From positions 1-64,000 of the forward strand of contig JAFLBG010000012.1 in NCBI GenBank assembly GCA_017303975.1: a stretch of 64,000 nucleotides of DNA. The letters are read 5' to 3'. Under the pieces are notes generated by a model. It worked only from the letters and a program-made list of their open reading frames with translations, made no database searches and was not told the origin of the DNA. Origin of the DNA: Bacteroidota bacterium. Lineage in GTDB: Bacteria; Bacteroidota; Bacteroidia; JAFLBG01. The translations under genes and the position numbers were made by a program. Shown here one piece after another: positions 36,764 to 42,220 of the stretch (position 1 is its first letter; each line of letters begins with the position of its first letter).

Positions 36764-37345
36764 ATGACTAAAATTGTTCTTGCTACGCACAATAAGGGTA
36801 AGTTAACCGAATTATCAGGCTTGCTAGACCTTCCGCAAATAGAGCTATGCCTGCTAGGTGATATTAATTGCCATGAAGATATTCCGGAAACTGGCAATAC
36901 AATGGAACAAAATGCAATACAAAAAGCAACATTTGTACATCAAAACTATGGTTGTAATTGTATTTCGGATGATAGCGGATTAGAGGTAAATGCATTGAAT
37001 GGTGCCCCGGGTGTGTACTCTGCTCGTTATGCCGGAAATCATAAAAACTCAGAAGATAATATAACCAAGCTTCTGAATGAGTTAGGTGGTAAATCAGACA
37101 GAACAGCACAATTTAGAACGGTTTTGTGTTTGCTCCTTGATGGAAGAATAGAACTGTTTGAAGGCGTTATCAAGGGAAGTATAACCACCGAAAGAAAAGG
37201 TAGTTCGGGCTTTGGCTATGATTCAGTATTTATGCCTAATGGATATACTAAAACATTTGCAGAAATGGATTTGGTTAAAAAAAATAAAATTAGCCACCGA
37301 GCCTTAGCTGTTAAAAAGTTAGTTAATTACTTAACCAACATATAG
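36764..37345 (+). CDS. rdgB: Non-canonical purine NTP pyrophosphatase (XTP/dITP)
   Basis: This 193-residue Ham1/RdgB enzyme cleans the nucleotide pool by hydrolysing dITP and XTP to monophosphates. The family signatures are ATHNKGKLTEL at the N-terminus, SDDSGLEVNALNGAPGVYSARYAG (~65-88, with the catalytic Asp), and GSSGFGYDSVFMP followed by FAEM and KISHRALA near the end. It is full length compared with the usual ~195 residues. Confidence 0.94.
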   Translation: MTKIVLATHNKGKLTELSGLLDLPQIELCLLGDINCHEDIPETGNTMEQNAIQKATFVHQNYGCNCISDDSGLEVNALNGAPGVYSARYAGNHKNSEDNITKLLNELGGKSDRTAQFRTVLCLLLDGRIELFEGVIKGSITTERKGSSGFGYDSVFMPNGYTKTFAEMDLVKKNKISHRALAVKKLVNYLTNI

Positions 37346-37447: not shown

Positions 37448-40165
37448 ATGGGAAAAATTAGAATTGGAATTTTATTTGGGGGAAGTTCTCGCGAACGCGA
37501 AATATCTTTTGCCGGAGGGAGAACGGTTTACGATAATTTGAATAAATCGCTTTTTGATGCAGTGCCTATCTTTGTGGATAGTTTTGGCAATTTTGTGGAG
37601 TTGAGGTGGGAGTATATTTATAAAGGTAGTGTGCGTGATTTTTATCCACCGGTAGATAGTTTGCCGACTTCGGAGAATGGATATCAGATTTATGCGGAAA
37701 ACATTGGTAAGTTAACGAAGTCGCAACAAAAGAAATTAGTAAGTACACTGGGCAAAGTATTGTCTGCCGAAGATTTGAAAAAGAAAATAGATTTTGCCTT
37801 TTTGTGTCTTCATGGTCCTAATGGTGAAGATGGTCGTATTCAAGGATTGTTGGAGTATTTGTCAATTCCTTATTCTGGAGCAGGAATTTTATCGTCAGCA
37901 ATTGGGATAGACAAAACGATTCAAAAAGAGTTGATGATAAATGCGGGGTTTAAAAGCCCTTCGTATTTTACAATCAAAAGAAACGAATGGGTTTACCAAA
38001 AAGACCATAATACAGTTGCTATAATTGCTGCTAAAATTAAAAGTACCCTTGGTTTTCCTTGTGTTGTTAAATCGGCTACACAAGGCTCTTCTATTGGGAT
38101 AAGTATTGTGTCGGAAGAATCTCATCAAGCAATTGCAGATGCCATTGATAAAAGTTTTTTTTGCAGAGAAATAAAAAAAGAATTTTGGGAAACCCTACAA
38201 ACTGAGCAGCGAGTTGAATATATTCGCGTGTTAACAGATATTCGAGAGGGCATTGGAATGCCTGTAGATTGTGCAGTTGGACGATCTGTAGAAACTATTT
38301 ACCATCCGGAAAAATTATTGAGTTTTGTAAACGAAAAACTAGAAGGTTTTGATTCTATTTATTTAGAAGGACATGATGCCGAAGCAATTGTATTGATTGA
38401 GCAGTTTATCGAGGGAAAAGAATTCTCGTGCATTGTTGTTCAAAACGAACATGGAAATGGTTTGGCTTTGCCGCCAACGGAGATAAGAAAGGGAAAAGAA
38501 TTGTTTGATTATCGATCTAAGTATTTACCCGGGTTGTCTCGAAAAATTACTCCAATCGAATTGCCCGATGAACAAATAAATAAAATAAGAACAGAGTGCG
38601 AGCGATTATTTAGAAGCTTAAATTTTGGTGTATATGCCCGCATTGATGGATTTATAAATGGTGTAGGCGAAGTGTTTTTAAACGACCCCAATACCACATC
38701 GGGAATGATGCCATCTTCATTCTTTTTTCATCAGGCTGCCGAAATTGGATTGAATCCATCACAGTTTTTAACTTATATAATTCGAACCTCAATAGCACAG
38801 CGTGTCAACGACTCTAAGAACTTAGAATTTGCAAAGCTTGTAACGTCCTTAGATAAAGCGATTGATAAAGATAGAAAAGCAGTTTCTTCAAAAATAAGAA
38901 TTGGTGTATTGCTAGGAGGTTATTCTTCCGAGCGACATATATCGGTTGAAAGTGGTAGAAATATTTACGAGAAATTGTCATCTTCTACTAAGTACGAACC
39001 TATTCCAATTTTCTTAACTGGAAGTAACGAAGAACATGAATTGTTCCAAATTCCTATAAATATTCTTTTGAAAGACAATGCAGATGATATAAAGGAGAAA
39101 ATAAATAATTTTAAAACACATCCCGTTGTAAGAGATATTATAACACAATGTTCTTCTATCACATCTAAATATGCGGCAAAGAATCAGCTGGGTGCTCCCC
39201 AAAAAATTTCGTATTCAGATTTAACCAATTTAGTTGATGGTGTATTCATTGCTTTGCATGGCCGACCTGGAGAAGATGGCGCAGTGCAAGAGAAATTAGA
39301 TAAATTGAATATTCCATATAATGGTTCGGGGGTAGAGAGTTCGCGCATTACTATAGATAAGTATAGAACAAATGAAATTTTGAAACAAAACGGGTTGCTG
39401 ATTGCCAATCATTTGTTGGTAAGCGATTTGGAGTGGCACACTGCAAAAAATAGTTTGTTGGAAAAAATTGTAAATGAAATTAAGTTCCCGCTTATAGCCA
39501 AGCCTGTGGATGACGGATGTAGTTCTGCAGTTAAAAAGATTAAAAGCATTGAGGAGCTAGAAGCATTTGCAGAGCTTATATTTAGAACTTCTAATGAGTT
39601 GAATACAAAAGCTGCGGAGATGCTTCATATTAAACCAAAAGAAGAGTTCCCGTCAAAAAAAGTAATGTTGATAGAAGAGTTAATTTCTAAGCGCGATGCC
39701 ATACATTTTTTAGAAATTACCGGAGGTATGCTTACTAAGTTTGATGAATTTGGACGTGTTTCGTATGAAGTTTTTGAAGCATCGGAAGCATTAAGCGAAG
39801 GAGATGTATTGTCGTTAGAAGAAAAATTTTTAGCAGGACAAGGACAAAATATTACTCCTGCGCGCTATTCGGCTAATAAAGAAGAAAGGCAATTGATTTC
39901 GAATAAGGTAAAAGAAGAATTAGGTAAGGCTGCGAAAATATTGAACATAAACGGATATACGCGTATTGATGCTTTTGTTCGGGTTTATGATGTGAATAGA
40001 GTAGAGGTTATTTTTATAGAGGTAAACTCTTTACCTGGGATGACCCCTGCAACATGTATTTTCCATCAGTCGGCAATTAATGGATACAAACCATTTGATT
40101 TTATTGATAAAATTTTAGATTTTGGATTTCAACGAAAACGCAAATCAGCACAACAACTAGCCTAA
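37448..40165 (+). CDS. Tandem double-module D-alanine--D-alanine ligase
   Basis: This 905-residue protein holds two consecutive Ddl-like ATP-grasp modules, where the family usually has one of ~310-370 residues. Module 1 (~1-470) has GGSSREREIS, HGPNGEDG, an intact ATP loop KSATQGSSIGIS (~207) and NDPNTTSGM (~411) in place of the usual E-x-N-x-x-P-G-M. Module 2 (~480-905) has GGYSSERHIS, HGRPGEDG, an altered ATP loop KPVDDGCSSAVKK (~683) and a canonical EVNSLPGMT (~856). The expected reaction is ATP-dependent ligation of two D-alanines for peptidoglycan. The next gene encodes a PASTA protein and overlaps by one base, a cell-wall context. Whether both modules are active is unknown. Confidence 0.85.
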   Translation: MGKIRIGILFGGSSREREISFAGGRTVYDNLNKSLFDAVPIFVDSFGNFVELRWEYIYKGSVRDFYPPVDSLPTSENGYQIYAENIGKLTKSQQKKLVSTLGKVLSAEDLKKKIDFAFLCLHGPNGEDGRIQGLLEYLSIPYSGAGILSSAIGIDKTIQKELMINAGFKSPSYFTIKRNEWVYQKDHNTVAIIAAKIKSTLGFPCVVKSATQGSSIGISIVSEESHQAIADAIDKSFFCREIKKEFWETLQTEQRVEYIRVLTDIREGIGMPVDCAVGRSVETIYHPEKLLSFVNEKLEGFDSIYLEGHDAEAIVLIEQFIEGKEFSCIVVQNEHGNGLALPPTEIRKGKELFDYRSKYLPGLSRKITPIELPDEQINKIRTECERLFRSLNFGVYARIDGFINGVGEVFLNDPNTTSGMMPSSFFFHQAAEIGLNPSQFLTYIIRTSIAQRVNDSKNLEFAKLVTSLDKAIDKDRKAVSSKIRIGVLLGGYSSERHISVESGRNIYEKLSSSTKYEPIPIFLTGSNEEHELFQIPINILLKDNADDIKEKINNFKTHPVVRDIITQCSSITSKYAAKNQLGAPQKISYSDLTNLVDGVFIALHGRPGEDGAVQEKLDKLNIPYNGSGVESSRITIDKYRTNEILKQNGLLIANHLLVSDLEWHTAKNSLLEKIVNEIKFPLIAKPVDDGCSSAVKKIKSIEELEAFAELIFRTSNELNTKAAEMLHIKPKEEFPSKKVMLIEELISKRDAIHFLEITGGMLTKFDEFGRVSYEVFEASEALSEGDVLSLEEKFLAGQGQNITPARYSANKEERQLISNKVKEELGKAAKILNINGYTRIDAFVRVYDVNRVEVIFIEVNSLPGMTPATCIFHQSAINGYKPFDFIDKILDFGFQRKRKSAQQLA

Positions 40166-40974
40166 TGGGAGTAATAAATTTTTTTAAGAAACATCCATTT
40201 GTAAGAAATATACTTTTCTCTATACTGGGAGCGGTGTTTTTTTTATGGCTTGTTTTTTTTATGATGAACTATTATACGTTGCACGGAAAAACGGTTGAAG
40301 TTCCTGATTTTAAAGGTGTTTCCGTAGCCCGTTTGGAAGATTTTGTAAAAGGAAAAGAGGTAACCTATTTAGTGATAGATTCTATTTTTGATGCCAAGGC
40401 AGAGAAAGGTGTTGTATTAAAGCAAGACCCGGAGCCTCAAACAATGGTAAAAAAAGATAGAACAATTTATTTGTATGTAACTGCTGTTATGCCTCCTCAA
40501 GTAGCAATGCCAAAGTTGCAAGATAAATCATTAAGACAGGCCGTTTCATTGATAGAAACATACGGTTTGCGTTTGGGCAGAATAAAATACAAGGCAGATC
40601 AGTGTAGTAATTGCGTTTTGGAGCAACAAGTAAAAGGTGTAAAAGTTGAAATAGGTAAGATGGTTCCAAAAGGAACTATTGTTGATTTGCTAGTTGGGAA
40701 AGGATTGGGAGATGAGCAAATTACAATCCCTTATCTAATTGGTTACACAAGACAAGAGGCTTTTGAGCGGTTGGGCGAACTATCTTTATTACTAGGCTCT
40801 GTTAGTTACGATGTGCCTTCAGATTCTTTAAAATCAAAAGTGTACAAGCAATTTCCGGTATCGGGGAATGAAAGGTATATTAACTCCGGAGCATCAATCG
40901 ATATATTTTTAACAACTGATAACTCTAAATTCCCTAGCTTATTAGAAGATACGCTAAGCTTGGAGGCAGAATAA
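40165..40974 (+). CDS. Membrane-anchored PASTA-domain protein
   Basis: This 269-residue protein has a short cytoplasmic start, one membrane helix (~13-38, ILFSILGAVFFLWLVFFMM) and three periplasmic PASTA repeats (~42-110, 112-182, 184-252; VEVPDFKGVS, VAMPKLQDKSLRQA, ITIPYLIGYTRQEA). PASTA domains recognise peptidoglycan or its precursors. There is no kinase or penicillin-binding domain, so this is a stand-alone PASTA protein, as is common in Bacteroidota near ddl. The ATG overlaps the ligase stop codon (TAATG), showing translational coupling. Confidence 0.87.
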   Translation: MGVINFFKKHPFVRNILFSILGAVFFLWLVFFMMNYYTLHGKTVEVPDFKGVSVARLEDFVKGKEVTYLVIDSIFDAKAEKGVVLKQDPEPQTMVKKDRTIYLYVTAVMPPQVAMPKLQDKSLRQAVSLIETYGLRLGRIKYKADQCSNCVLEQQVKGVKVEIGKMVPKGTIVDLLVGKGLGDEQITIPYLIGYTRQEAFERLGELSLLLGSVSYDVPSDSLKSKVYKQFPVSGNERYINSGASIDIFLTTDNSKFPSLLEDTLSLEAE

Positions 40975-41002: not shown

Positions 41003-42220
41003 ATGCGTTTTTTTTTAGTTTGTGTTTTACTGCTTTTTTTTCAAATTAATTTACAGTGCCAAGTTTCGGATTCATTGCTTGTTGGGGTTGATATTGTTTT
41101 TCCAATTATAAAACCGAATACACTGTCAGTACATCCATTAGGAATGTATATTGCTAGAATAAATCACAATTTTAAAACATATGCACAGCAAAAAAAATCT
41201 TTTTCATTTGAAATATCAAATGGAAATGTATGGCTACCATATGTAAAATCATATGAATTGCAAGATGTTGTTGATCAAAAAATAGCCGAGGGTATTCCTT
41301 GGCACGAGCGAGAAGGAAAGTTTGATGTGAATACTGTCCTTTCAAAAACGAAAGAGTTTTTGGCAGATGGAGTGTTGCGTTCATACAGAATGTCTTTTTG
41401 CTTGCCAATAAATACAACCCAGGAGATAACTATTGGAATTCGTTCGTATTCGCTCGATAAAGGGAAAGGTCCTTTTTCGTTAGTAACATCGGATAATTCG
41501 ATTGAGTGGTTTCATAGTAATATTGCGGGTGGCGAGGATCCTTTTTCTAGAAAATTTTATGGTTTAAATAATGCGCAAATTGTGTATAAAGATGCAAACG
41601 ATAATTATGTAAGAATGAACTCTGGCGATTTTGTAATACCGGGAATTGAATTGGATTATCTGTATTATCCTAAACTAACAATAAACGATAAACGAAAAAT
41701 ATATCTGAATTTTGGGGCTCACATAGGTGTAAACACCTCGCAGTATAATCCTGTTGCAGATATAGGTTTTTCGACATCTGGTGTAAAGAAAATTAATTTT
41801 GCAAAAAATAAATCGTTAGAATTGGGAATAAGTGCTGGTGCATTGCGCCAAGCTACTATTGTGTATGGAAATAGGGTTGCTATTAGTGGTAGAAAATTTA
41901 TTTCAAGTTTTGAAAGTAATGTTACCTATCAAAAGCAACTAAAAAAGAAACGTGCAATTTCTTTAGCTCTTAACTATAATTTGCAATCAGCTTATTTTAA
42001 TCCTTCCGATTTCGAACATGTGGTTTTAACCGGTAATAGACACACTTCTCATTGGCATTACGCTATTTCAGAATTGTATAGTGGCTTACAAGCTTGGAGT
42101 TTTATTTTTACTTTTGCCCACAGACGAATTGCTTACTGTGTCTATGTAAGAGAGGATTTGTTAGTTGATAATGCTCCCGATTTACAAACAGGATTTGGAA
42201 TAAATGTATTTCTCAAATAG
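41003..42220 (+). CDS. Uncharacterised exported protein, probable outer-membrane beta-barrel
   Basis: I do not recognise this 405-residue protein. It has a signal peptide (~1-19, LFFQINLQCQ). The C-terminal ~200 residues alternate in a pattern suggesting beta-barrel strands and end in aromatic/hydrophobic residues (FGINVFLK). Segments such as FGAHIGVNTSQYNP, ISLALNYNLQSAYF and HTSHWHYAISELYSG are reminiscent of outer-membrane lipid-modifying enzymes, including acyloxyacyl hydrolase-like proteins, but I see no firm catalytic motif. It follows the PASTA gene by 28 bp and may be cotranscribed with it. Confidence 0.6.
   Translation: MRFFLVCVLLLFFQINLQCQVSDSLLVGVDIVFPIIKPNTLSVHPLGMYIARINHNFKTYAQQKKSFSFEISNGNVWLPYVKSYELQDVVDQKIAEGIPWHEREGKFDVNTVLSKTKEFLADGVLRSYRMSFCLPINTTQEITIGIRSYSLDKGKGPFSLVTSDNSIEWFHSNIAGGEDPFSRKFYGLNNAQIVYKDANDNYVRMNSGDFVIPGIELDYLYYPKLTINDKRKIYLNFGAHIGVNTSQYNPVADIGFSTSGVKKINFAKNKSLELGISAGALRQATIVYGNRVAISGRKFISSFESNVTYQKQLKKKRAISLALNYNLQSAYFNPSDFEHVVLTGNRHTSHWHYAISELYSGLQAWSFIFTFAHRRIAYCVYVREDLLVDNAPDLQTGFGINVFLK

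Follow-up and report, generated by a model that had tools for sequence, protein, structure and literature searches.

The essential enzyme D-alanine-D-alanine ligase (Ddl), which D-cycloserine targets, is normally a homodimer of single-domain chains. The window analysed here, a stretch of 64,000 nucleotides from a Bacteroidota genome (3.43 Mb, 99.8% complete), contains a gene in which two Ddl modules are present in one chain. This raises the question of whether both modules are working ligases and, if so, whether they make the same product.

A tandem Ddl had been proposed at this locus by a sequence-only reading, and our analysis agrees with it: a single reading frame encodes two Ddl modules, and the motifs quoted for each of them lie in the modules to which they had been assigned (Table 1). 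Profile search of the 905-aa protein gives two matches each for Ddl_N (PF01820, 171 bits) and Ddl_C (PF07478, 187 bits), with both profiles exceeding their cut-offs in each module. The whole 905-aa protein scores 380 bits against the D-alanine-D-alanine ligase model TIGR01205, for which the curated cut-off is 245.65. Module 1 also carries an insert of ~70 residues (about 240–312), which is placed between the ATP loop and Glu180. The sequence-only reading had asked for a check of the genome for another ddl; this was run over the whole genome and reveals no second Ddl, as the only matches to the PF01820 profile are the two tandem modules. The other PF07478 matches in the genome are taken for other ATP-grasp enzymes because their frames are without a PF01820 match.

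Table 1. Positions (in the window) of the tandem Ddl gene, its parts and its two neighbours.
Feature	Position	Strand	Residues	Remarks
RdgB/Ham1-type non-canonical purine NTP pyrophosphatase	36764..37345	+		upstream neighbour; adjacency only
Tandem Ddl gene	37448..40165	+	905 aa	single ORF; sole Ddl of the genome
Module 1	37448..38815	+	1–456	complete Ddl; invariant E270D, P275S
Module 1 ATP loop QGSSIGIS	38081..38104	+	212–219	S150 equivalent kept
Module 1 omega loop	38492..38545	+	349–366	Y216 equivalent kept; pLDDT <50
Module 1 metal site NDPNTTSGM	38681..38707	+	412–420	Asp413 = Glu270 of DdlB
Inter-module helical linker	38816..38890	+	457–481	from the structure model
Module 2	38891..40162	+	482–905	complete Ddl; invariant S150C, Y216F; nearly invariant S281T
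Module 2 ATP loop DDGCSSAVKK	39509..39538	+	688–697	Cys691 = Ser150
Module 2 omega loop	39797..39847	+	784–800	has LSLEEKFLAG; Phe794 = Tyr216; pLDDT <50
Module 2 metal site EVNSLPGMT	40019..40045	+	858–866	canonical Glu, Asn
PASTA protein	40165..40974	+	269 aa	probable N-terminal membrane anchor; ATG shares one base with the Ddl stop codon (TAATG)

For comparison of the active sites, both modules were aligned with E. coli DdlB (whose residue numbering is used throughout) and 34 single Ddls, and the alignment was then widened to 120 distinct tandems. Alignment with DdlB reveals that E15, K97, K144, E180, E187, K215, R255, D257, N272 and G276 are kept in both modules. Among the active-site residues compared, module 1 departs from DdlB only at Glu270 and Pro275, which are replaced by Asp and Ser, respectively, in 120 of 120 tandems. 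E270D is its sole departure from the catalytic set that defines a Ddl; it is a conservative change and is common to sole-Ddl relatives. Module 2 departs nowhere from this set (E15, K97, K144, E180, E187, K215, R255, D257, E270 and N272), and its substitutions are S150C and Y216F, each present in 120 of 120 tandems, and Ser281 to Thr, present in all but two of them. All 16 tested positions are invariant, or nearly so, in each module across the 120 tandems; Lys144, for example, is replaced by Arg in two module-1 sequences. Active-site columns are invariant in 16 of 17 cases in module 1 and in 17 of 17 in module 2, compared to 23–26% of all columns (binomial 8e-10 and 8e-11, respectively, which ignore relatedness and serve as a guide only). 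Module 2 is slightly the more conserved of the two, with a mean pairwise identity of 64.4% versus 62.6% for module 1 and a higher identity in 1271 of 1770 sequence pairs. As the module-specific substitutions are invariant across 120 tandems, they appear to be fixed signatures under selection and not the result of decay. The earlier description of the motifs as complementary and degenerate does not hold, given that each module retains its catalytic residues.

Ser150 and Tyr216 have been reported to be conserved in Ddls that make only D-Ala-D-Ala (PMC7691350). Both residues are present in module 1 of all 120 tandems and in the single Ddls of the comparison set (34/34 at either position), and module 2 has Cys and Phe in their place. 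DdlB carrying both of the corresponding residues of LmDdl2 (Ala and Phe) gained weak D-Ala-D-Lac activity (PMC7691350), and in lactic acid bacteria the presence of Phe or Tyr at 216 tracks depsipeptide or dipeptide activity (PMC5996685). Module 2 shares Phe at 216 and a non-Ser residue at 150 with LmDdl2, the Leuconostoc D-Ala-D-Lac ligase (PDB 1EHI), and with the Phe-type Ddls (PMC7691350, PMC5996685). However, unlike LmDdl2, it has Cys instead of Ala at 150 (120/120) and a different omega-loop sequence, and it is fused to a Tyr-type module. No characterised D-Lac or D-Ser ligase was found to have the remainder of the module-2 omega loop (LSLEEKF). Phe alone is compatible with the ordinary product, because Y216F DdlB still makes D-Ala-D-Ala. 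No gene for D-lactate or D-serine supply is seen adjoining the tandem gene. A VanX-type dipeptidase was also considered as a marker of D-Ala-D-Lac and rejected, since it does not discriminate: one of the genomes that have lost module 2 has a VanX-like M15 peptidase as well.

The best reading of these sequence features is a two-site Ddl with one site of the strict type and one of the altered-specificity type. We assign a probability of roughly 0.5 to the view that module 1 is canonical and module 2 is active with an altered choice of second substrate, so that a single chain with two active sites would act as a D-alanine ligase with differentiated modules. Module 1 is very probably a D-Ala-D-Ala ligase. 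It would bind ATP, two Mg2+ and two D-alanines canonically, would tolerate the Glu-to-Asp change at one metal ligand, and would supply the essential D-Ala-D-Ala to MurF. Module 2 is likely to be catalytically active, as a working ATP-grasp ligase that keeps the residues for D-Ala1, ATP/Mg and the second carboxylate. In module 2, the Glu15-Ser150-Tyr216 triad (located at the second-substrate gate and the omega loop) is changed to Glu-Cys-Phe. Because of this change an altered second-substrate specificity is predicted, at close to even odds; the second substrate might be different or broader, with D-lactate as one candidate among other D-hydroxy or D-amino acids. To this extent the earlier proposal of differentiated modules, one with a different product, finds qualified support in the differences at S150 and Y216. 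It is rather doubtful, though conceivable, that one essential protein provides two peptidoglycan termini, D-Ala-D-Ala from module 1 and D-Ala-D-X, such as a depsipeptide, from module 2. If true, this would mean a built-in mixed cell wall in a large Bacteroidota lineage, later given up by some families, and a natural case of two differently tuned Ddl sites at a fixed 1:1 ratio. MurF is present in the source genome with two strong matches (G000:C5:64359-65609 and G000:C3:80302-81573). One of them lies within an 828-aa frame, which is probably the MurF-alanine racemase fusion common in Bacteroidota.

Search of 40 relatives reveals a full-length tandem in 16 genomes besides the source genome (51–67% identity) and one further tandem split over two contigs. 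In a wider sample, 137 of 295 relatives match at E up to 1e-60 with a tandem or tandem-derived gene; the tandems belong to about 37 families, and two of the 137 genes have the module-1-only form. The tandem Ddl is lineage-restricted, because an even draw across the phylum gives matches in only 6 of 396 genomes (E up to 1e-100); within the family of genome G421, 99 of 101 genomes match. The tandem or tandem-derived gene is the sole Ddl in all 22 other genomes examined (22/22), and the named records with the tandem are almost all uncultured Bacteroidota MAGs. No paper on a tandem Ddl turned up in a search of the open-access literature; a dedicated model for it was not found either, and none was seen among solved structures. 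The sequence-only reading had held that a widespread, characterised family of this form would count against it; the family is widespread but, as far as found, uncharacterised, with an ordinary fold and main reaction and an unusual architecture. Family models label the tandem plainly as D-alanine--D-alanine ligase, so that the second site goes unseen. A two-site sole Ddl in many Bacteroidota families alters the view of the Ddl step, and of its inhibitors, in these bacteria.

Relatives that have lost module 2 or the whole tandem provide a natural evolutionary experiment on the function of module 2. In the family of genome G224 (36 genera sampled), PF01820 matches exactly once per genome in 80 of 81 cases, in Ddl frames mostly of 553–642 aa. 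Alignment of 30 of these reveals a full set of module-1 catalytic residues, with Asp at 270 as in the tandems, and a C-terminal part that is a decayed module-2 N-lobe. Comparison of this stump with profiles (hhalign) gives by far the best match to the module-2 N-lobe (E 1.2e-18), ahead of module 1 (7.5e-6) and single Ddls (0.02). In the tree these sequences are placed beside the tandem module-1 sequences; the tree is unrooted, so the direction of change is inferred. In the simplest interpretation, module 2 became truncated in this family and module 1 suffices by itself. The stump of ~110 residues, with no active site, persists across many genera (loci L185-L214 and L222), which suggests a retained structural role. 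A second case is found in genus g208 of the tandem family, where genome G450 carries, alongside a canonical single Ddl, a tandem with wrecked active sites. In two other genomes of the genus (G445 and G465) a canonical Ddl is present and a tandem could not be detected; the tandem is retained in five congeners. In this lineage the whole tandem was apparently displaced by a canonical Ddl, and therefore Ddl activity is the only essential role that has to be assumed. The module-1-only family and the displaced tandems together indicate that the vital job is ordinary Ddl activity, and module 2 might be dispensable over evolution. The wrecked tandem of G450 (L231:1544-4087, minus strand; G450:C1:163043-165586) is an open 848-aa frame with both active sites destroyed and a PASTA gene downstream, and is possibly a pseudo-enzyme or a decaying gene. 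The tandem family may be Hymenobacteraceae, and Spirosomataceae is a tentative guess for the module-1-only family.

Both the apparent replacement of the whole tandem by a canonical Ddl in one lineage and the persistence of the module-2 N-lobe remnant, which is expected if it forms an interface, would also fit a protein in which both modules make D-Ala-D-Ala. The fusion would then be a covalent pseudo-dimer replacing the homodimer (canonical Ddls are generally known to be dimers, and both modules retain the catalytic residues), and the differences between modules would reflect early drift or the tuning of kinetics, pH or ligand response. We regard this as unlikely, as the exact invariance of S150C and Y216F over dozens of families is better explained by selection for a difference at the second-substrate gate than by drift. 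That a whole family lost module 2 and has no other Ddl in its place could also be explained if module 2 is a regulatory pseudo-subunit, a binder of ATP or D-Ala with a modulating effect on module 1 and no catalysis of its own. The change of the ATP loop from GSSIG to GCSSA, the changed omega loop and the well-known precedent of CarB, a tandem ATP-grasp protein with non-equivalent sites, are in line with such a role. However, module 2 shows no variation at any tested catalytic Lys, Glu, Arg, Asp or Asn, the metal ligands and the R255 carboxylate site among them, whereas the dead tandem of G450 illustrates relaxed catalysis. Together with the slightly higher conservation of module 2, this disfavours the earlier suggestion that one module is degenerate or purely regulatory, and we consider it quite improbable. 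An artefact of sequencing, assembly or annotation, or a recent accidental duplication, has next to no chance of being the explanation: nothing was found in its favour, the same architecture recurs in 120 distinct sequences, which come from independent genomes (the single-contig genomes G421, G480 and G512 among them), and modules 1 and 2 of the window protein are only 27% identical. Complementary half-sites forming one composite active site were rejected because each module has its own full residue set and one family has module 1 by itself as its sole Ddl.

The tree groups modules 1 and 2 together (support 94/87) on long branches, with a stem of 2.6 for module 2, and internal duplication is favoured over fusion of two different Ddls as their probable origin. 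An AlphaFold2 model built with 38 tandem sequences has a mean pLDDT of 83 and a pTM of 0.85. Its two longest low-confidence stretches are the omega loops (349–366 and 784–800), as expected if these act as mobile lids. Foldseek against the PDB returns almost exclusively Ddls, the best matches included, with LmDdl2 and the Y216F DdlB mutant among them. Each module shares with canonical Ddls (E. coli DdlB and DdlA; TIGR01205, PF01820 and PF07478) the domain order, the ATP-grasp fold and nearly all catalytic residues, whereas the tandem differs in having two modules per chain, with E270D and the ~70-residue insert in module 1 and S150C, Y216F and S281T in module 2. VanA/VanC/VanG-type ligases belong to the same superfamily, and their second-substrate specificity is altered via the omega-loop region; however, the tandem has the Phe/Cys signature and scores far below the curated NCBIfam cut-offs for VanA, VanB, VanC and VanG (257 versus 495 bits for VanG). 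In the MurC-Ddl fusion (NF011171) a Ddl is likewise joined to a cell-wall ligase, but the partner there is MurC and here a second Ddl, and the score is 186 bits against a cut-off of 1015. CarB and CPS1 also have two tandem ATP-grasp units with non-equivalent sites, and are comparable in the ATP-grasp part only; over the whole length, human CPS1 matches the structure weakly (TMq 0.42).

The gene immediately downstream of the tandem encodes a PASTA protein, an arrangement present in 64 of 114 tandem loci. The coupling to a PASTA protein noted by the sequence-only reading is thus confirmed as adjacency. As a special feature of the tandem it was rejected, since PASTA genes are also found beside canonical single Ddls in many Bacteroidota and are ordinary there. 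No PASTA gene was found near the module-1-only genes in the loci read. Beside the PASTA gene, positions 41003-42220 of the window encode a 405-aa protein with no Pfam/NCBIfam match, which is possibly an outer-membrane protein. In one genome (G212, L118:4742-8341, plus strand) the tandem Ddl and the PASTA protein are fused in one open frame of 1200 aa.
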